Assembly: GCF_935822925.1 (NCBI RefSeq)
Contig: NZ_CAKXZS010000011.1
Coordinates: 402,308 to 466,307 of the forward strand
DNA: 64,000 bases
DNA from: Mesorhizobium ventifaucium
Lineage (GTDB): Bacteria; Pseudomonadota; Alphaproteobacteria; Rhizobiales; Rhizobiaceae
Direction: 5' to 3'
The position numbers and the translations under genes were made by a program. Position 1 is the stretch's first letter; each line of letters begins with the position of its first letter. The notes under the pieces are model-generated. The model saw nothing but the letters and a program-made list of their open reading frames with translations, searched no databases and was not told where the DNA came from. Of the stretch, positions 32,952-41,100 are shown one piece after another.

Positions 32952-34205
32952 TTATTCAGCGGCGCGGACAGGCTCTACCTGCTGGAAGGCGGCGAGCGCC
33001 GCCTTCAGTCCGTCCGGTCCCGTCGCAACCGTCTGCGGCGTCGGCGAGAAGCCGGCGCCGAGCATCTTGCGGCCAAGCATATGGTCGCCCGGCCGGTTGA
33101 CCGACTCGATGCCGAGCAGACGATTTCCAGCATAATGGTAGATCGAAAATCTGTTCTCGTTGACGTCGCCCAGCACGACATGGCTGTCGCCGCCCGAAAT
33201 CAGGCCGACCATCTGCAGCTTGATGTCGCCGATGTCGGACCAGAACCATGGCACCGCCGCAAAGGCGTCGGCGTGACCGAGGATGGTGCGCGCGGCGAGA
33301 CGCGCCTGGTCGGTCGCATTCTGCACCGATTCCAGCCGCACATCGCCGCCGGTGAGCCAGTGCCGGTAGGAGGCGGCGTCGCCGATAGCGAGGATTTCGG
33401 GCATAGACGTGCGCATCTGCTGGTCGACGCGGATGCCGTTGGCGATCGTGATGCCGGCGGTCTGCGCCAGTTCGACATTAGGCACGACGCCGATGCCGAT
33501 GATCACCATCTGCGCCGGCAGCCGCTCGCCGGATGCGGTGATTGCCGCCGAGACATAGCCGTTCTCGCCTTCGAGCCGCGCAATCGTGGTGCCGGTGAGG
33601 ATGCGCACGTCGATCGCTTCCAGCCGCTGCCGCACGTGGCTCGCGATGATCGGCGCCACCGCCCGGCCGAGTAGCCGGTCGACCGCCTCGACCACGGTAA
33701 CCTTGCGGCCGGCCGCTTTGAGCGTCGCGGCGATCTCCAGCCCGATGAAGCCGCCACCGAGGATGACGACATCCTCGCTCTGTGCGCTCAATTCGCGGAT
33801 CAGGCGTGCGTCGGCGAGCGAGCGCAGCGACACCACGCCTGAAAAATCCGAACCCGGCAACGACAGCATGCGCGGCCGCGAACCGGTCGCCAGGATCAGC
33901 CGGTCGAACGGCAGTGTGCCGCCATCTGATAGCTCCAGCCCACGGCCGCCGGCATCGATGCGATCGATGCGGACGCCCTGCCGGTAGTCGATCGCGCTGC
34001 CGGTATAAAAAGCCTCGCCGCGCAGCGGCTGCGGTTTGGCCTCTTGATCCTTGATGAAGGTCTTCGACAGCGGCGGCTTGTGGTAGGGCAGTTCGTCCTC
34101 GTCACTGAGGAGGATCACGGGTCCGTCGTGGCCGTCCTCGCGCAGGCTGGCGGCCGCTTGCACGCCCGCATGACCCGCACCGACAATGACCACACCGTTT
34201 TTCAT
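32952..34205 (-). CDS. FAD/NAD-dependent ferredoxin (rubredoxin-type) reductase
   Basis: 417 residues. FAD-binding VIVGAGHAGVQAAASLRE at the N-terminus, LPYHKPPLSK, LILATGSRPR, an NAD-binding VILGGGFIGLEIAATLKAAG near residue 150, VVPNVELAQTAGI and AIGDAA. This is the ferredoxin-NAD reductase family of oxygenase systems (BphA4/ThcD-like). No oxygenase or ferredoxin gene is adjacent. It is divergent from the iron operon, and the Irr-type box lies 175 bases upstream of its start, so an iron link is possible. Electron acceptor unknown. Confidence 0.85.
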   Translation of the reverse strand: MKNGVVIVGAGHAGVQAAASLREDGHDGPVILLSDEDELPYHKPPLSKTFIKDQEAKPQPLRGEAFYTGSAIDYRQGVRIDRIDAGGRGLELSDGGTLPFDRLILATGSRPRMLSLPGSDFSGVVSLRSLADARLIRELSAQSEDVVILGGGFIGLEIAATLKAAGRKVTVVEAVDRLLGRAVAPIIASHVRQRLEAIDVRILTGTTIARLEGENGYVSAAITASGERLPAQMVIIGIGVVPNVELAQTAGITIANGIRVDQQMRTSMPEILAIGDAASYRHWLTGGDVRLESVQNATDQARLAARTILGHADAFAAVPWFWSDIGDIKLQMVGLISGGDSHVVLGDVNENRFSIYHYAGNRLLGIESVNRPGDHMLGRKMLGAGFSPTPQTVATGPDGLKAALAAFQQVEPVRAAE

Positions 34206-34379
34206 CGCAGACCCAATTCCTCATCTCTCCAACGCGTCATCGAAGTCTAGGACGTCTCGCCAAGTGGCGATTGTCTGACGCCGCCGCAAGACCACCTTTG
34301 CGGGTCGCACCCGGAATGGCGGTCTGTCAATCGTCTCGTCGACGGCGGCACGGCAAATGCAGCTAAAGTTGATACTTGC

Positions 34380-34400
34380 AGTTTAGAATAATTCTAAACT
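34380..34400. promoter_or_regulatory. Iron control element (ICE), probable Irr binding site
   Basis: A perfect 21-bp palindrome (10 bp, one central base, 10 bp) containing TTTAGAA-N3-TTCTAAA, which is the published ICE consensus bound by Irr in rhizobia, Agrobacterium and Brucella. It is markedly AT-rich against its surroundings. It is located upstream of irpA and, in the other direction, of the FAD reductase. Irr links transcription to heme and iron status. Confidence 0.88.
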
Positions 34401-34433
34401 GTTGTTTCAATTGGCTTTTCTCTCTGAAATCGG

Positions 34434-34462
34434 TTGACTTCCGGCACCTTCATCGCTTTATG
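34434..34462 (+). promoter_or_regulatory. Candidate promoter for irpA
   Basis: TTGACT, 17 bases, TTTATG. If used, the ICE centre (34390) lies about 80 bases upstream of the start point. Only the boxes and spacing support it. Confidence 0.4.
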
Positions 34463-34667
34463 GAAGCTTGCGCGTCAAGCGCATCCCTTTGATGTCTGGG
34501 CCTTGAACCCTTTCGATTGGAGGCATTTCGATGTCTTTCTTCCGCAAACCGCGCTATGCCGCGGCCTGTATCACGCCCAATGGCATGGACCTGCCTTGGC
34601 GCCGATTGCCTGCCGACGCGCCTTTGGCGCCGGCATTTTCACTGAATTCCCGAGGGAGATGACAATC

Positions 34668-35969
34668 ATGAGAGCGATGATCATGGCGCGATATGGCAGC
34701 AGGCTTGCAGCGATCGGCGCCACGGCGGCCTTGACGGCGGCGATATTCGTGCTGCCGGCCAAGGCGGAAACCGATGCCAAGGCGGTCATCGAGACCTATT
34801 CCGACATTGCGCTCGCCAAATATGAGGATTCGCTGACCTCGGCGCAGGCGCTCGACAAAGCCGTCGACGCGCTGCTCGCCAAGCCCTCGGTGGAAACGCT
34901 GGCTGCCGCCCGCGAGGCCTGGAAAGCGTCGCGCGTTCCCTATCAGCAGACCGAAGTCTATCGCTTCGGCAACGCCATCGTCGACGACTGGGAAGGCAAG
35001 GTGAATGCCTGGCCGCTGGACGAAGGCCTGATCGACTATATCGCCGAGAACTACGGCACCGAGTCGGACGCGAATGCGCTCTACACCGCCAATGTGATCG
35101 CCAACAAGTCGATCGAAATCGACGGCAAGAAGATCGACGCCACCAATCTTATTCCCGAGTTCCTCTCCGGCACGCTGCAGGAAGCCGGCGGCATCGAGGC
35201 CAATGTGGCGACTGGCTATCACGCCATCGAATTCCTGCTGTGGGGTCAGGATCTGCACGGCACCGGCCCGGGCGCCGGCGAACGGCCCTATACCGACTAC
35301 GACCTCGCCAACTGCACCGGCGGCAATTGCGATCGTCGCGGGCAGTACCTGAAGTCGGCGAGCGAGCTTCTGGTTTCCGATCTGCAGGACATGGTCAACG
35401 ACTGGAAGGAAGGCGGCGCCGCCCGCAAGAACCTTGTCGATGGCGAGCCGAAAGCCGGCATCTCGGCCATTCTCACCGGCATGGGCTCGATGTCCTACGG
35501 CGAACTCGCCGGCGAGCGCATGAAGCTTGGCCTGCTGCTGCACGATCCGGAAGAGGAGCATGACTGCTTCTCTGACAACACCTACGATTCCCATCTCTAC
35601 GATGCCGTCGGCATTCGTGCCGCTTATAAGGGCAGCTACACGCGCCTCGACGGCACGGTCGTCGAAGGCCCTTCGGTGTCCGACATGGTCAAGGAGGCCG
35701 ATCCAGCGATCGACAAGGAACTGTCCGAAAAGCTTGATGTCACTGTCGCCAAGATGGAAGCCATCAAGGCGCGGGCGCTTGGCGGCGAGGCCTATGACCA
35801 GCAGATCGGCGAAGGCAATACGCAAGGCAACGCCACCGTGCAGGCGGCGATCGACGCGCTGGTCGACCAGACCAAGTCGATCGAGCGCGCCGTCGGCGCC
35901 CTGAAACTCAATGCCATCGCCTTCGAGGGCTCGGACAGCCTCGATGCGCCAGACAAGGTGTTTCAGTAG
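34668..35969 (+). CDS. irpA: Imelysin-family iron-regulated protein (IrpA, COG3487)
   Basis: 433 residues from ATG 34668, where GAGGGAG lies 9 bases upstream; ATG 34659 is an alternative. Signal peptide LAAIGATAALTAAIFVLPAKA, so periplasmic. Imelysin (peptidase M75) fold with the GxHxxE metal-like motif GYHAIEFLLWG near residue 184 and the conserved TEVYRFGNAIVDDWEG and ERPYTDYDL segments. Members are iron-regulated and take part in iron uptake; protease activity is doubtful. First gene of the ICE-linked operon. Confidence 0.9.
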   Translation: MRAMIMARYGSRLAAIGATAALTAAIFVLPAKAETDAKAVIETYSDIALAKYEDSLTSAQALDKAVDALLAKPSVETLAAAREAWKASRVPYQQTEVYRFGNAIVDDWEGKVNAWPLDEGLIDYIAENYGTESDANALYTANVIANKSIEIDGKKIDATNLIPEFLSGTLQEAGGIEANVATGYHAIEFLLWGQDLHGTGPGAGERPYTDYDLANCTGGNCDRRGQYLKSASELLVSDLQDMVNDWKEGGAARKNLVDGEPKAGISAILTGMGSMSYGELAGERMKLGLLLHDPEEEHDCFSDNTYDSHLYDAVGIRAAYKGSYTRLDGTVVEGPSVSDMVKEADPAIDKELSEKLDVTVAKMEAIKARALGGEAYDQQIGEGNTQGNATVQAAIDALVDQTKSIERAVGALKLNAIAFEGSDSLDAPDKVFQ

Positions 35970-36092: not shown

Positions 36093-36404
36093 ATGCTGAT
36101 CTGCCATTGCAACATCATCACCGAGAAGGAGATTGAGCAGACGATCGTCGGGCTGCTGGATCAGGATCCCTGGCAGCTTATCGTGCCGGCGAAAATCTAT
36201 CATGCCATGCAGAAGCGTGGTCGCTGTTGCGGCTGCTTCCCAAATGTGGTCGAAACGATCATTCGGGTAACCGAAAATTACCACGCCCGCTCGGAGGCGA
36301 GCGGCGGGGATGTCGTTTCACACCTGGATCGCGTCAGAGGCCTGCGCGTCCAATACGGGAGCAGAACCCATGAAAGGCGAACAGCAGATCATAGAGCGGC
36401 TTAA
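36093..36404 (+). CDS. bfd: Bacterioferritin-associated ferredoxin
   Basis: 103 residues. The [2Fe-2S] cysteines are C4 and C6 (MLICHCN) and C45/C48 in GRCCGCFP, the Bfd pattern; the loop between the pairs is a little longer than in E. coli. In the family it reduces the bacterioferritin core to release iron. The last 12 codons overlap the bfr start in another frame, so the C-terminal 30 residues (from about [13 protein letters not shown]) may be an add-on with no structural role. It starts 123 bases after irpA; no ICE is visible in that gap. Confidence 0.88.
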
Positions 36405-36855
36405 CGAGGCTCTGTTTCTGGAACTTGGAGCAGTCAATCAGTACTGGGTGCATTTCCGGCTGCTGGAGGACTGGGGCTACGCCAAGCTGGCGAAGAAGGA
36501 ACGCGCGGAATCGATCGAGGAGATGCACCATGCCGACCGGCTCGTGGCCCGCATCATCTTCCTTGAAGGCCATCCGAACCTGCAGTCGGTAGCACCGCTG
36601 CGCATCGGACAGAATGTCAAGGAAGTGCTCGAATCGGATCTTGCCGGCGAATATGACGCGCGCTCTGCCTACAAGCGGTCGCGCGAGATTTGCGAAGAAG
36701 CAGGCGACTATGTGACGATGAAGCTGTTCGAGGATTTGTTGTCTGACGAGGAAGGTCACATCGACTTCCTCGAGACGCAACTCGACCTGCTCGCCTCGAT
36801 CGGCGAGGAAAAATACGGCCAGCTCAACGCGGCATCGGCCGACGAGGCGGATTAG
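36370..36855 (+). CDS. bfr: Bacterioferritin
   Basis: 161 residues, standard. The 24-mer iron store. Ferroxidase ligands are all present: E18 (LFLELG), E51 and H54 with heme-ligand M52 between them (IEEMHHAD), then E94 (EYDAR region), E127 and H130 (DEEGHIDF). Starts inside the end of bfd (35-base overlap), so translation of the two is coupled. It lies inside the irpA operon, joining iron storage to the imelysin uptake genes. Confidence 0.95.
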
Positions 36856-36867
36856 GGACATGCGGGA

Positions 36868-38475
36868 ATGCGGCGCCCCTTAGATTTCTTGCGCCGCTTG
36901 CGGCGGGCCGAGGATTACGGCCTGCCGTCCCAGCACAACCCGCGATACGGCTGGGTTCGCGGGCTTTCGCTTGCCGTAGTGGTCGCGCTGACCGCCTCGG
37001 CGCTGGCCGGCGCGCCCGAACCGGCGAGTCTCGCCACCAGCCGTGCCGATCTGACGCCGAAGGATCTTGCGCGCGTCATTGCCATCACCGGGCCGACCAG
37101 GGATTTCTCCAAGCCCGAACAGTTCGAGCCGATGCAGGGCGGCGCCGGCACGTCACGGAAAGGCGCCAACAAGGACGCTTTCTCGCAATCCTCGACCAAT
37201 ATCACGTTCGAGGAAGAGGGCACCTTCAAGCTCGGCAATGCCCTTTTCCGCAAGAACTGGGTGTCGTCGCCCTCGTCGACGCAGGCATCGGACGGGCTTG
37301 GTCCGCTGTTCAACGAGCGGGCGTGCCAGAATTGCCATCTGAAGGACGGTCGCGGTCATCCGCCGGACGCCGACAGCGGTACCACTTCGATGTTCCTGCG
37401 GCTGGCGCGCCAGGCGAGCACCGAGGAGGAGAAAGCAGCGCTGGCCGCCCGCAAGGTGCTCAACTTCCCCGATCCGGTCTACGGCTCGCAATTGCAGGAA
37501 CTGGCCGTTCCGGGTCTTCGGGGCGAAGGCAGGATGCGTGTCGTCTATCAGGAGCAAAAAGTCACGCTGCCGGACGGCACCGTGGTTTGGCTGCGCAAGC
37601 CGAGCTATTCGGTCGATGAACTTGCCAACGGGCCGCTCGATCCGCACACCACGCTTTCGCCGCGCTTGACGCCGCCGATGATCGGCCTCGGCCTGGTCGA
37701 GCAAATCGCGCCGGCCGACATTCTCGCCGATGCCGATCCGGACGATCGGGATGGTGACGGCATCTCCGGCAAGCCCAACATCGTGCGCGACGGCCAGAGC
37801 GGCGAGCCGACGCTCGGCCGCTTCGGCTGGAAGGCGCAGGCCCCTTCGATCCGCCAGCAAGCGGCGGACGCGTTCGCCGGCGACATCGGCATTTCGACGC
37901 CGGAAGTGCCGAACCACTGGGGGGATTGCACCGCGGCCGAAAAGACCTGCCTTGCCATGCCCAGCGGCGCCCAGGAGCGCCTCGGCCCGGTCGAGGCGCC
38001 GCCGCCGGTCATGGACCTCGTCACCTTCTATTCGCAAAACCTCGCCGTGCCGGCGCGGCGCGATCTCGACAAGCCCGATGTGCTGGCCGGCAAGAAACTG
38101 TTCTACGACATGGGCTGCATTTCCTGCCATACGCCGAAATTCGTCACCCGCCGCGGCACGCCCAACAAGGCACAGGCCTTCCAGCTGATCTGGCCCTATT
38201 CCGATTTTCTGCTGCACGACATGGGACCGGACCTCGCCGACGGGCAAGCGGTGGGCGATGCTACCGGGAGCGAATGGCGAACGCCGCCGCTGTGGGGCAT
38301 CGGTCTTACCCAGACCGTCAACGGCAACAACTTCTTCCTGCATGACGGGCGGGCGCGCACGCTAACCGAGGCGATCCTGTGGCATGGCGGCGAGGGGCAG
38401 AAGGCGCGTGACCGTTTTGCCGCCGCCGCCGCGCCCGATCGCGCCGCACTGGTCAAATTCCTGGAGTCGTTGTGA
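36868..38475 (+). CDS. Di-heme c-type oxidoreductase (COG3488)
   Basis: 535 residues. An N-terminal helix (LSLAVVVALTASALAG) acts as signal or anchor. Two heme c sites: CQNCH near residue 152 and CISCH near 417, in a fold related to MauG/di-heme peroxidases. Earlier annotated as a thiol oxidoreductase. It normally travels with imelysins (COG3487 and COG3489) and COG3490, as here. A redox role in periplasmic iron handling is inferred. Starts 12 bases after bfr; ends in a TGATG overlap with the next gene. Confidence 0.88.
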   Translation: MRRPLDFLRRLRRAEDYGLPSQHNPRYGWVRGLSLAVVVALTASALAGAPEPASLATSRADLTPKDLARVIAITGPTRDFSKPEQFEPMQGGAGTSRKGANKDAFSQSSTNITFEEEGTFKLGNALFRKNWVSSPSSTQASDGLGPLFNERACQNCHLKDGRGHPPDADSGTTSMFLRLARQASTEEEKAALAARKVLNFPDPVYGSQLQELAVPGLRGEGRMRVVYQEQKVTLPDGTVVWLRKPSYSVDELANGPLDPHTTLSPRLTPPMIGLGLVEQIAPADILADADPDDRDGDGISGKPNIVRDGQSGEPTLGRFGWKAQAPSIRQQAADAFAGDIGISTPEVPNHWGDCTAAEKTCLAMPSGAQERLGPVEAPPPVMDLVTFYSQNLAVPARRDLDKPDVLAGKKLFYDMGCISCHTPKFVTRRGTPNKAQAFQLIWPYSDFLLHDMGPDLADGQAVGDATGSEWRTPPLWGIGLTQTVNGNNFFLHDGRARTLTEAILWHGGEGQKARDRFAAAAAPDRAALVKFLESL

Positions 38476-39554
38476 TGTCGAAGCGTCTGGCGGTTGTCCT
38501 GGCTCTCCCGCTGGTCCTCGCCTGCGCATTGTCGGCGTCCGCAGCGGTGAAGGCTTCCGACGTGATCCAGCGAGCAATCGACGGCTTTGTTCGCCCCGCC
38601 TATACGCGCCTGCATGACCATGCGGACAGCCTGAGCAACGCAGTGCGCACCCTGTGCGACGCGCCTTCGCAGGACCATCTTGATGCGGCGCGCGCCGAGT
38701 TCTCCGGCACCGTGGATGCCTGGTCGGTCGTCGAGATCATCCGCATCGGACCGATCACGCAGAACAACCGGCTGGAGCGCATGCTGTTCTGGCCGGACCG
38801 AAAGAGCATCGGCCTGAGGCAGGTGCAGGCGGCGCTGGCCAGTAAAGACCGGACCGCCGCCGATCCGGCCCAGCTGGCGACAAAGAGCGTCGCCATGCAA
38901 GGGCTCGGCGCGCTGGAATTCGTGCTTTACGGCGATGGCGCCGAGCGGCTCGCCGGCAAGGACGATCCCTATCGCTGCGCTTACGGCGCGGCCGTCGCCG
39001 GCAACATCGAAACGATTGCCGCCGAGGTCAGCGACGCCTGGAACAAGCCCGACGGCTTTGCAGCACTTTGGGCCAATCCGGGGCCGCAAAACGCACTCTA
39101 CCGCGACGGCACGGAAGCGGTGACCGAACTGGTCGGCGTCTTCATCAACGAACTGGAGTTGGTCCGTGACGTGCGCCTGAAAGGTTTTCTGGGGAGTAGC
39201 CCGGAGGCCGACAAGCCGAAACAGGCGATCTACTGGCGTTCACAAAACACCACGCGTTCGCTGACCGGAAACCTTTCGGGCATGGACGCTCTGTTCCAGG
39301 CTTCGCAGCTTGGCGACGCGCTGTCGCCCGATGCGCGCTGGATGGCGGAATCGATCCACATCCAGCTCGTCAACGGCGCCGCCGACGCTACCGCCATCAG
39401 AGGCCCGATCGACAAGGCGCTCGCCGACCCGACGCTGCGCCAGAAGCTCGACCACTTTTCGCTGGTGACATCCAGCCTATCGACCCTGATCGGCACCAGG
39501 CTGACCGCCGAATTCGGCCTGACCGCCGGGTTCTCGTCGCTCGACGGAGACTGA
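38475..39554 (+). CDS. Second imelysin-family periplasmic protein (COG3489)
   Basis: 359 residues. Signal peptide KRLAVVLALPLVLACALSASA. Imelysin-like helical fold, more diverged: the motif that is GYHAIE in IrpA reads GLGALE, so the His is gone. In related organisms it sits beside COG3488. The start overlaps the preceding stop (TGATG). The ALACALSA segment could be read as a weak lipobox, but the Cys is followed by a better signal-peptidase I site. Confidence 0.85.
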   Translation: MSKRLAVVLALPLVLACALSASAAVKASDVIQRAIDGFVRPAYTRLHDHADSLSNAVRTLCDAPSQDHLDAARAEFSGTVDAWSVVEIIRIGPITQNNRLERMLFWPDRKSIGLRQVQAALASKDRTAADPAQLATKSVAMQGLGALEFVLYGDGAERLAGKDDPYRCAYGAAVAGNIETIAAEVSDAWNKPDGFAALWANPGPQNALYRDGTEAVTELVGVFINELELVRDVRLKGFLGSSPEADKPKQAIYWRSQNTTRSLTGNLSGMDALFQASQLGDALSPDARWMAESIHIQLVNGAADATAIRGPIDKALADPTLRQKLDHFSLVTSSLSTLIGTRLTAEFGLTAGFSSLDGD

Positions 39555-39671
39555 GCATGATCTGGAAAAGTTGGAGACTTTTTGGACTAATTTCTGGCGC
39601 AGAAGGTTGACTGATCGGATGACGTGGATGGGATCGCATGCTCTCGAGATTGGCTGAAACGCCCTTCCCGT

Positions 39672-39853
39672 CGTCATCCTGGGGCGGAGCAAGGAGCGAA
39701 GCGACGCGGCGCAGACCCCAGGATCCATGCCGTGACTTCAAGGCGCTGCAACGGTGCGGAATTCTGCTCCGCTGCAAACTTCGACCAAGATTACGGCATG
39801 GATCCTTGGGTCTCCGCGACGGAGCTTCGCTCCTGCTCCGCCCAAGGATGACG
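39672..39853. repeat. Second repeat family (B): long inverted repeat
   Basis: Arms GTCATCCTGGGGCGGAGCAA and TTGCTCCGC-like inverse (GCTTCGCTCCTGCTCCGCCC..AGGATGAC), with inner CAGGATCCATGCCGT and ACGGCATGGATCCTTGGG also inverted. About 180 bases, no coding capacity, no transposase. It interrupts the iron operon between the COG3489 and COG3490 genes; the 439-base spacer otherwise shows nothing I can name. Confidence 0.75.
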
Positions 39854-39993
39854 AAGCTGGGGAGGCTTCGGCCAATCCCGAACGCCTGTGGTGATCCATT
39901 CAAACGATCGCTGGGTGCCTGGCGCCAGGAAGCCCTCCGATCTGTCAAGATCCCCGTGTCGAGGAAGGGGACCGTGCCCGAGAGGACGGTCTC

Positions 39994-41100
39994 TTGAAAA
40001 CGCCGCTGATCGATCGTCGTGATTTTCTCAGGGCCGCAGGCGTTGGCTTTGTTGCCGCGATGGCGCCACCGGCATGGGCGAAGACGCTTGCCACCGACGC
40101 CGTCTTCGCCAGCGCTTTCGTCAAGCGCGACGGCAGCTATGGCGCGGCGATCCTGTCCGAGGCCGGCAAGGTGCTGCATGCCATCGACCTGCCCGCCCGC
40201 GGTCACGATGTCACCTTCGATCCGGTGTCAAAGCGCTCCGTGGTCTTTGCCAGGCAGCCCGGCACCTTCGCCGTGGTCTTCGACCACACCGGCCGCGACG
40301 AGCCGCTGACCATTGCCAGCGTCAGTGGACGGCATTTCTTCGGCCACGGCGTGTTTTCGACCGATGGTGCGCTGCTCTACGCCACCGAGAACGATTTCGA
40401 CAATGCCGCCGGCGTGGTCGGCGTCTATGACGCGCGTGCGAAATTCAAGCGCGTTGGTGAGTTCCCGACCTATGGCACGGGTCCGCACGAGCTTCTGCTG
40501 CTCGGCGACGGCAGGACGATTGCCGTCGCCAATGGCGGCATCGAGACGCATCCGGATTATGGCCGCGCCGAGCTCAACATCGCGACGATGAAGCCATCTT
40601 ATGTGCTGGTCGACCGCCTTACCGGCGACCTTGCCGAAAAGCACGAATTGCCGCCGGCGCTGCACCAGCTTTCGATCCGGCACATGGATACCGACAAATC
40701 CGGCACGGTCTGGTTCGGCTGCCAGTACAGGGGGCCGGGCAGCGATTGTCCGCTGCTGGTCGGCTGCGCCGCCCGCGGCAAGGAATTGCAACTGCTCGAC
40801 ATGCCGCAGGACGTGCTGTCCGGCTTGAGGAACTACATCGGCTCGGTCGCCGCCAACCCCGCTGCCGGCACCGTCGCCGTGTCCTCGCCGGAAGGCAACT
40901 CGCTTGCGGTGATCGATGCGACCAGCGGCCGGATCGTCGCCACCAACGCATTGGCCGAGGTCTGCGGCTTGGCGCCCGACGGGACGGGCTTCATGGCGAC
41001 GACTGGCACGGGCGAAATCGTCGAAGCGGGCGGCGCGACACGGTCCGAGCCGGACTATGTCTGGGACAATCACATGCTGCGCATCGACCAGACCGCATAG
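39994..41100 (+). CDS. DUF1513 Tat-exported beta-propeller-like protein (COG3490)
   Basis: 368 residues from TTG 39994 (AGAGGACG upstream). Twin-arginine signal DRRDFLRAAGVGFVAAMAPP. Repeated blade-like segments (GHDVTFDPVSKRSVVFARQP, HFFGHGVFSTDGALLYATEN, GPHELLLLGDGRTIAVANGG) suggest a seven-bladed propeller. Fourth member of the irpA/COG3488/COG3489/COG3490 set; periplasmic. Function unknown but tied to iron by constant context. Confidence 0.85.
   Translation: MKTPLIDRRDFLRAAGVGFVAAMAPPAWAKTLATDAVFASAFVKRDGSYGAAILSEAGKVLHAIDLPARGHDVTFDPVSKRSVVFARQPGTFAVVFDHTGRDEPLTIASVSGRHFFGHGVFSTDGALLYATENDFDNAAGVVGVYDARAKFKRVGEFPTYGTGPHELLLLGDGRTIAVANGGIETHPDYGRAELNIATMKPSYVLVDRLTGDLAEKHELPPALHQLSIRHMDTDKSGTVWFGCQYRGPGSDCPLLVGCAARGKELQLLDMPQDVLSGLRNYIGSVAANPAAGTVAVSSPEGNSLAVIDATSGRIVATNALAEVCGLAPDGTGFMATTGTGEIVEAGGATRSEPDYVWDNHMLRIDQTA

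Follow-up and report, generated by a model that had tools for sequence, protein, structure and literature searches.

An exact Irr box and a conserved leader RNA before the irpA-bfd-bfr iron operon of Mesorhizobium ventifaucium and its relatives

Iron control in alphaproteobacteria has been described mainly through DNA-binding regulators (Irr, RirA, Fur/Mur). We analysed a 64,000-nucleotide stretch of Mesorhizobium ventifaucium DNA (hereafter, the window) that carries an operon headed by an irpA-type imelysin gene. The region upstream of irpA resembles the Irr/ICE regulon of alphaproteobacteria in having an exact ICE, in the presence of an irr gene in the genome, and in the occurrence of a box at the genome's own mbfA gene. 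The locus differs from that regulon because here a shared leader RNA accompanies a phase-locked upstream box, a pairing not described in the literature that we searched.

Three kinds of regulatory RNA come closest to the leader element. Translational riboswitches and orphan RNA motifs likewise show a covarying, conserved structure over the Shine-Dalgarno sequence of functionally related genes, whereas the present core is very short (38 nt) and has no match in Rfam 15. RNA thermometers (ROSE, fourU) share a weak, G-U-rich helix over the Shine-Dalgarno sequence; in contrast, this element has a fixed heptaloop, a restriction to iron genes, and no Rfam match. The animal iron-responsive element (IRE) is also a hairpin in the leader of iron genes, but its loop is CAGUGN, whereas the loop here is CCUUGAA.

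A search against Rfam 15 gave a best E value of 0.36 in the window, which was below the gathering score and on the other strand, and nine other loci gave no match at E ≤ 1; the leader was thus rejected as a known Rfam element. Our literature search (outside subscription journals and supplements) turned up no RNA element of iron genes for this group, and a term search of PMC2864571 found the word ‘iron’ once, in the reference list. The leader RNA is apparently undescribed so far.

The Irr box and its neighbouring genes

The DNA elements and genes of the locus are as follows (window coordinates).

32952–34205, minus strand: ferredoxin-reductase-family flavoprotein (Pyr_redox_2 and Reductase_C; Pfam and solved-structure search)
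34256–34332, minus strand: conserved block before the reductase, with TTGACA (34330–34325) and three short palindromes (genus alignment)
34379–34401, no strand assigned: Irr box (ICE) within a perfect 23-bp palindrome, exact consensus at 34382–34398
34433–34461, plus strand: putative promoter P2 of the irpA operon, GTTGAC-N17-CTTTAT, proposed from fixed TTGAC spacing, with the start expected near 34468
34668–35969, plus strand: irpA-type imelysin (Pfam Peptidase_M75, E 8.7e-89; solved relatives)
36093–36404, plus strand: Bfd-like [2Fe-2S] ferredoxin of 103 aa, conserved at 60/60 genus loci
36370–36855, plus strand: bacterioferritin (NCBIfam bfr, 180 bits, cut-off 125.6), presumed start codon at 36370
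36868–41100, plus strand: remaining iron cluster of a di-haem oxidoreductase, a second imelysin and a DUF1513 protein (Pfam search)

The original prediction had claimed an exact TTTAGAA-N3-TTCTAAA match to the ICE. We found this match, TTTAGAATAATTCTAAA, at 34382–34398, and the palindrome containing it spans 23 bp. No other site in the window matched the consensus with up to three mismatches, and dinucleotide shuffles averaged 0.31 such matches. The M. ventifaucium genome (6.74 Mb) held two exact matches and two with one mismatch. At two mismatches a reversed-pattern control was as common as the real pattern (8 versus 7 places in all); therefore, we placed weight only on sites with zero or one mismatch. 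The other three such boxes accompany mbfA (NCBIfam MbfA, above its cut-off), a NifS-like cysteine desulfurase gene, and a gene whose C-terminus weakly resembles NifU/NfuA, the latter two genes scoring below curated cut-offs. These locations agree with a working Irr regulon. The irr gene itself (L069, G000:C11:472167-472463) lies 5.9 kb past the end of the window and exceeded both NCBIfam cut-offs (IrrA, 223 bits against 150; Irr, 209 against 170). The one-mismatch box at G000:C11:312419-312435 (L062) has the NifU/NfuA-like gene on one side and, on the other, a divergent region that precedes a possible universal stress protein gene.

A box at the same place in related genomes, which the original prediction had named as a check, was present at all 60 genus irpA loci (59 exact, one with one mismatch). 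These loci came from 61 genomes, 60 of which contained a full-length irpA and the 61st an irpA fragment only. The divergent reductase and a downstream Bfd were found at 60/60 of them and Bfr was seen at 58/60; L046 and L047 had lost bfr and kept bfd. Outside the genus we read 28 family loci, drawn from 91 genomes with an irpA match, and 24 of the 28 had the box with 0–2 mismatches. The other four (L097, L099, L100, L101) had at least three mismatches at best, and also had neither bfd nor bfr. At L094 the box was present, and bfd and bfr were absent. An alignment of the intergenic region of the 60 genus loci revealed three conserved blocks instead of a single one.

The Bfd-like protein of the window had no match in Pfam or NCBIfam, and we take it to be a Bfd by its Cys pattern. 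Its reading frame runs ~35 bp into bfr, which is read in another frame; the BLAST coordinates of the genus loci also show an overlap.

The original prediction further proposed that the box might control the divergent reductase. On such a reading one box would drive both sides, with the reductase serving Bfd. This flavoprotein resembles BphA4 and putidaredoxin reductase in type; among solved structures a putative rubredoxin reductase was its closest relative, followed by putidaredoxin reductase. The box and the reductase are neighbours at 60/60 genus loci, and inspection of the other strand of the box showed a weak promoter-like sequence. However, three reductase orthologues of the wider family that do not lie beside irpA (L412, L414, L416; 59–63% identity) had no box (best 7, 6 and 6 mismatches), yet kept the reductase's upstream block within two mismatches. 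Sixteen more distant reductase relatives (42–54% identity) had no box either (best 5–7 mismatches). Moreover, the gap between the box and the reductase's TTGACA drifted from 44 to 153 bp (57/60 genus loci where the TTGACA was found), whereas the distance from the box start to the TTGAC of the irpA promoter was 51–53 bp at 60/60 genus loci. From the unlinked reductases and the drifting spacing we conclude that the box is not the reductase's, and we consider shared control improbable. A weak proximity effect on the reductase is possible, since it adjoins the box at every genus locus. The conserved block of ~77 bp, found at 60/60 genus loci and containing its TTGACA in 57/60, is probably the reductase's own promoter or operator, outside the Irr unit; with its three short palindromes it might act as an operator, or else as the reductase's own RNA leader. 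We put at roughly 0.6 the probability of our best explanation as a whole, in which the box would truly serve Irr in controlling the irpA-bfd-bfr operon, with the divergent reductase outside this control.

Promoter geometry and the sense of Irr control

The prediction of Irr control over the irpA operon gained support from the exact genus-wide box, the irr gene, and the fixed spacing between box and promoter. The promoter sequence, GTTGAC-N17-CTTTAT, presumably fits the rhizobial sigma-70 consensus. To the order-wide comparison of spacing we admitted 77 non-redundant loci that had a box with at most two mismatches. Results showed TTGAC at +40 to +42 in 24/77 loci, at +51 to +53 in 38/77, and at both positions in none (62/77 in total); six-position windows elsewhere contained TTGAC in 0–3 of the 77. 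The two positions are one helical turn apart, as expected if a regulator contacts RNA polymerase from one constant side, and we therefore infer activation. In addition, the box lies ~80 bp before the expected start at a fixed distance upstream of the −35 element, which suits an activator, so Irr most likely activates at low iron. That is, Irr bound at the box under low iron would switch the irpA-bfd-bfr operon on. We judged a role of Irr as activator at the irpA operon to be probable from this geometry.

Published work bears on both sides of this question. Excerpts of PMC7762939 state that the position of the ICE decides whether Irr represses or activates, and that Irr commonly activates directly. 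These excerpts also describe bfr of rhizobiales as repressed by Irr at low iron, and the part of PMC3413700 consulted describes Irr as a repressor in all species studied to its date; both statements count against activation. Were Irr a repressor here, as it is elsewhere at bfr and mbfA, it would shut this iron-storage operon at low iron. Besides these statements, a TTGAY found 13–14 bp before the box in the genus favours repression, as the box would then overlap the −10 element of a second, upstream promoter. In contrast, upstream TTGAC occurred in only 6/77 order-wide loci, compared with a phase-locked downstream −35 element in 62/77, and the mbfA box of the same genome has another geometry, ending 16 bp before the start codon. 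Data for R. sphaeroides in the same part of PMC3413700 also speak against repression: expression of irpA, bfd and bfr is higher when iron is low (4.05, 2.71 and 1.99, wild type, low versus normal iron), though no Irr box was predicted there and the leader RNA was not found in class-drawn genomes. The values for the irr mutant versus wild type at normal iron were 0.56, 0.49 and 0.55, given in parentheses for failing the authors' intensity criterion. For R. sphaeroides bfd and imelysin, the portion of PMC4344238 consulted predicts IscR, not Irr. On balance we regard repression by Irr as rather unlikely at this operon and favour activation.

A conserved leader RNA linked to iron genes

The leader elements of the window, which follow the promoter, are listed next.

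34469–34483, plus strand: small hairpin P0 (TGCGC/GCGCA) ahead of the core, with 76% of cells paired and changes on both sides in each of its five pairs
34486–34523, plus strand: leader RNA core, with helix P1 (CCUUUGAU/AUUGGAGG), hairpin P2 (GGG-CCUUGAA-CCC) and the Shine-Dalgarno sequence GGAGG at 34519–34523 (covariation, model searches)
34531–34662, plus strand: small leader ORF of 43 codons that uses the core's Shine-Dalgarno sequence and ends 5 bp before irpA
34549–34564, plus strand: hairpin P3 (CCGCG/CGCGG), just inside the leader ORF

The 38-nt core reads CCTTTGATGTCTGGGCCTTGAACCCTTTCGATTGGAGG, and the irpA leader RNA extends from ~34469 to 34564. In the alignment, the P1 strand CCUUUGAU pairs with AUUGGAGG, which is the Shine-Dalgarno strand, around the GGG-CCUUGAA-CCC hairpin. 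Hairpin P0 was variable and absent in some relatives. A further hairpin starts ~20–25 nt past the Shine-Dalgarno sequence: in the interval that begins 20 nt after it, 59% of 118 non-redundant loci had a strong stem, versus 9–24% in intervals 40–400 nt after it. The leader ORF encodes a little-conserved peptide that had no match in Pfam or NCBIfam.

We used an alignment of 82 diverse core sequences to examine covariation. The proposed structure paired 84.1% of cells, versus 79.6 in shuffles. Both-side changes were seen at 9 pairs and in 69 cells (versus 5.6 and 28.4 in shuffles), and none of 500 shuffles reached 69. The covariation score was 0.278; shuffles gave 0.196 and slid controls no more than 0.139, and every slid control was lower on paired cells, both-side cells and covariation. 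Pair 19–34, which closes the GGG/CCC stem, showed all six pair types, and covariation in P1 consisted mainly of one-side changes. RNAalifold recovered P1 and P2 unaided from the first alignment. Folding energies of single sequences mostly failed to improve on those of shuffles, and for the leader in the window itself the lowest-energy fold differed from the alignment structure with P1 over the Shine-Dalgarno sequence. The heptaloop was CCTTGAA in 51/82 cores, and its two U residues were invariant in 82/82. An alternative GCCUU/GAGGC pairing of the loop CCUU with the Shine-Dalgarno sequence paired 92% of cells, but had no both-side changes and no excess over shuffles, and was set aside; it is possible as a transient pseudoknot.

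Conservation of the leader might in principle reflect an encoded peptide in the PFDVWALNPFDWR frame, which is open in the window, and two variable positions of the core are third codon positions (GTN, CCN). However, the four-fold site of GCC did not vary in 55/56 rows (the remaining row has an indel), TGG was replaced by GGG, AGG or CGG in 9/56, and the second TGG became TGA in 2/56. Stops lie directly upstream in L075, L081 and L085, and the sequence changes follow base pairing. The codon-position and stop evidence ruled out the leader as peptide-coding, a reading to which we give almost no credence. The comparative evidence argues that the element is almost certainly a real cis-acting RNA.

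The core was found at 60/60 genus loci and at 20/28 family irpA loci, and all 20 of these had the box. It was absent at the other eight, four of which had a box (L090, L091, L094, L098); none of the 28 family loci had the RNA without a box. The first search model (56 sequences) detected the RNA in 83/297 order genomes at E ≤ 1, and the second in 100/396 at E ≤ 0.01. Among class-drawn genomes it appeared in 3/385 at E ≤ 0.05, namely the M. ventifaucium genome and two marginal matches, in a search where large-set filters can lose weak matches. The M. ventifaucium genome had one strong copy only. A second candidate (L193, G000:C13:12376-12433; E 1.29), ~1.4 kb from the Irr box of the NifS-like gene, was taken as noise. 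An exact-pattern scan of named genomes gave at least 118 stretches, and the 80 of these that we read come from genera such as Mesorhizobium, Hyphomicrobium, Methyloceanibacter, Phyllobacterium, Brucella, Pseudochrobactrum, Cohaesibacter, Aminobacter and Propylenella. The element, with a Cys-rich gene and an Irr-like box, also occurs in a record titled Bacillus subtilis strain SK6B4 (L314), a genome that has probably been mislabelled or contaminated.

We compared the downstream genes in three sets of loci that share some members; the first gene that could be recognised belonged to an iron operon at 78/83, 56/60 and 77/80 loci. The 83 loci were 85 matches less two duplicates (L126 is the place of L191, and one match of L177 is the place of L148); one member of set A, L189, appears to be a false positive. 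The downstream genes were a Cys-rich gene with irpA, an Fe3+-binding ABC protein gene, bfd-bfr, FeoA-FeoB, FTR1, and an A-type Fe-S carrier gene. The labels ‘cys’, ‘bfdA’, ‘bfdB’, ‘unk408’ and ‘fbpA’ rest on BLAST to single references (E ≤ 1e-4), with fbpA checked on one protein: all 28 of its solved-structure matches at E ≤ 1e-20 were to entries for ABC iron-binding proteins, although the title gave just extracellular solute-binding protein in one case and a gene name in two. Of the loci outside the iron-operon count, two began with a DUF2325 gene and ten had no recognised gene, one of the ten (L261) having a TonB siderophore receptor. The start codon directly followed the Shine-Dalgarno sequence at 69/69 fbpA and 7/7 Fe-S carrier loci, and a small leader ORF often stood between the Shine-Dalgarno sequence and irpA, bfd or the Cys-rich gene. 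We are highly confident, from these gene neighbourhoods, that the leader RNA is linked to iron genes.

Several arrangements accompany the element. A Cys-rich protein of ~165–175 aa, with a motif like CPLxSFPFGAHHxCRDECL, is encoded before irpA or after fbpA in many relatives (L078, L080, L110, L119 and others); it had no match in Pfam, NCBIfam or solved structures, and its gene upstream of irpA has been lost in the genus. Back-to-back RNA copies, each reading outward, occur at G241:C2:386284-386567, G282:C14:58497-58780, G316:C3:68760-69257 and G395:C41:6868-7198. In L160 and L236/L237 one of the paired copies faces a Cys-rich gene, and in L237 the opposite copy faces the Cys-rich gene and irpA. 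A DUF2325 protein of ~400 aa follows the RNA in L167, L177 and L250, in the last of these between bfd and bfr.

The association of box and RNA was assessed at 135 loci (223 loci, minus 63 with too little upstream sequence, including all 60 of set B, and minus 25 redundant). The box lay 180–50 nt before the core at 37, 77 and 101 of the 135 with at most one, two and three mismatches, respectively. By comparison, 60 permuted palindromes of the same composition gave means of 0.03, 0.42 and 2.9 and maxima of 1, 5 and 22. At L409 irpA is gone, and the box, promoter and RNA stand before bfd-bfr.

Possible action and meaning of the leader RNA

In the mechanism that we propose, the transcript would begin with the conserved cis-acting RNA after the promoter, near 34468. 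A weak helix would hold the Shine-Dalgarno sequence in a duplex around the CCUUGAA hairpin, with a further hairpin just past the start codon, and opening or closing of this leader structure would set the level of translation. We consider it likely that the leader RNA controls translation. Whether it also responds to a signal related to iron, on its own or by way of a factor, we hold to be about evenly balanced; a candidate signal at the heptaloop would be a small ligand, a protein or a small RNA. More tentatively still, the leader RNA may define an undescribed iron-responsive RNA regulon of Hyphomicrobiales, in which a switch sensing iron, haem or an Fe-S protein directly tunes translation.

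The leader RNA could instead be a constitutive structure of the ribosome-binding site (for example, one that acts against premature Rho termination or decay), with Irr alone providing iron control. Such a structure would fit the lack of an evident switching partner, the ordinary folding energies, and the Irr-like box already present at 101/135 loci. Yet the fixed heptaloop, with CCTTGAA in 51/82 cores and an invariant U-U, exceeds the needs of a generic ribosome-binding site, as does the restriction to iron operons, and we find a constitutive role doubtful. The recurrence of the RNA, usually with the box, before iron genes across relatives suggests a second, RNA-level iron control.

If the iron-responsive regulon is real, it would cover ferric and ferrous uptake, imelysin, bacterioferritin and Fe-S assembly genes, with the switch usually ~100–120 nt downstream of an Irr-type box. 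Iron status would then be read twice, by Irr on the DNA and again by the RNA. The phase-locked box positions allow a direct test of Irr as an activator, and the leader RNA would offer nitrogen-fixing symbionts a candidate iron- or haem-sensing RNA that is simple to test. A structured leader RNA common to uptake, storage and Fe-S genes would add a shared translational layer to the control of iron in these bacteria.
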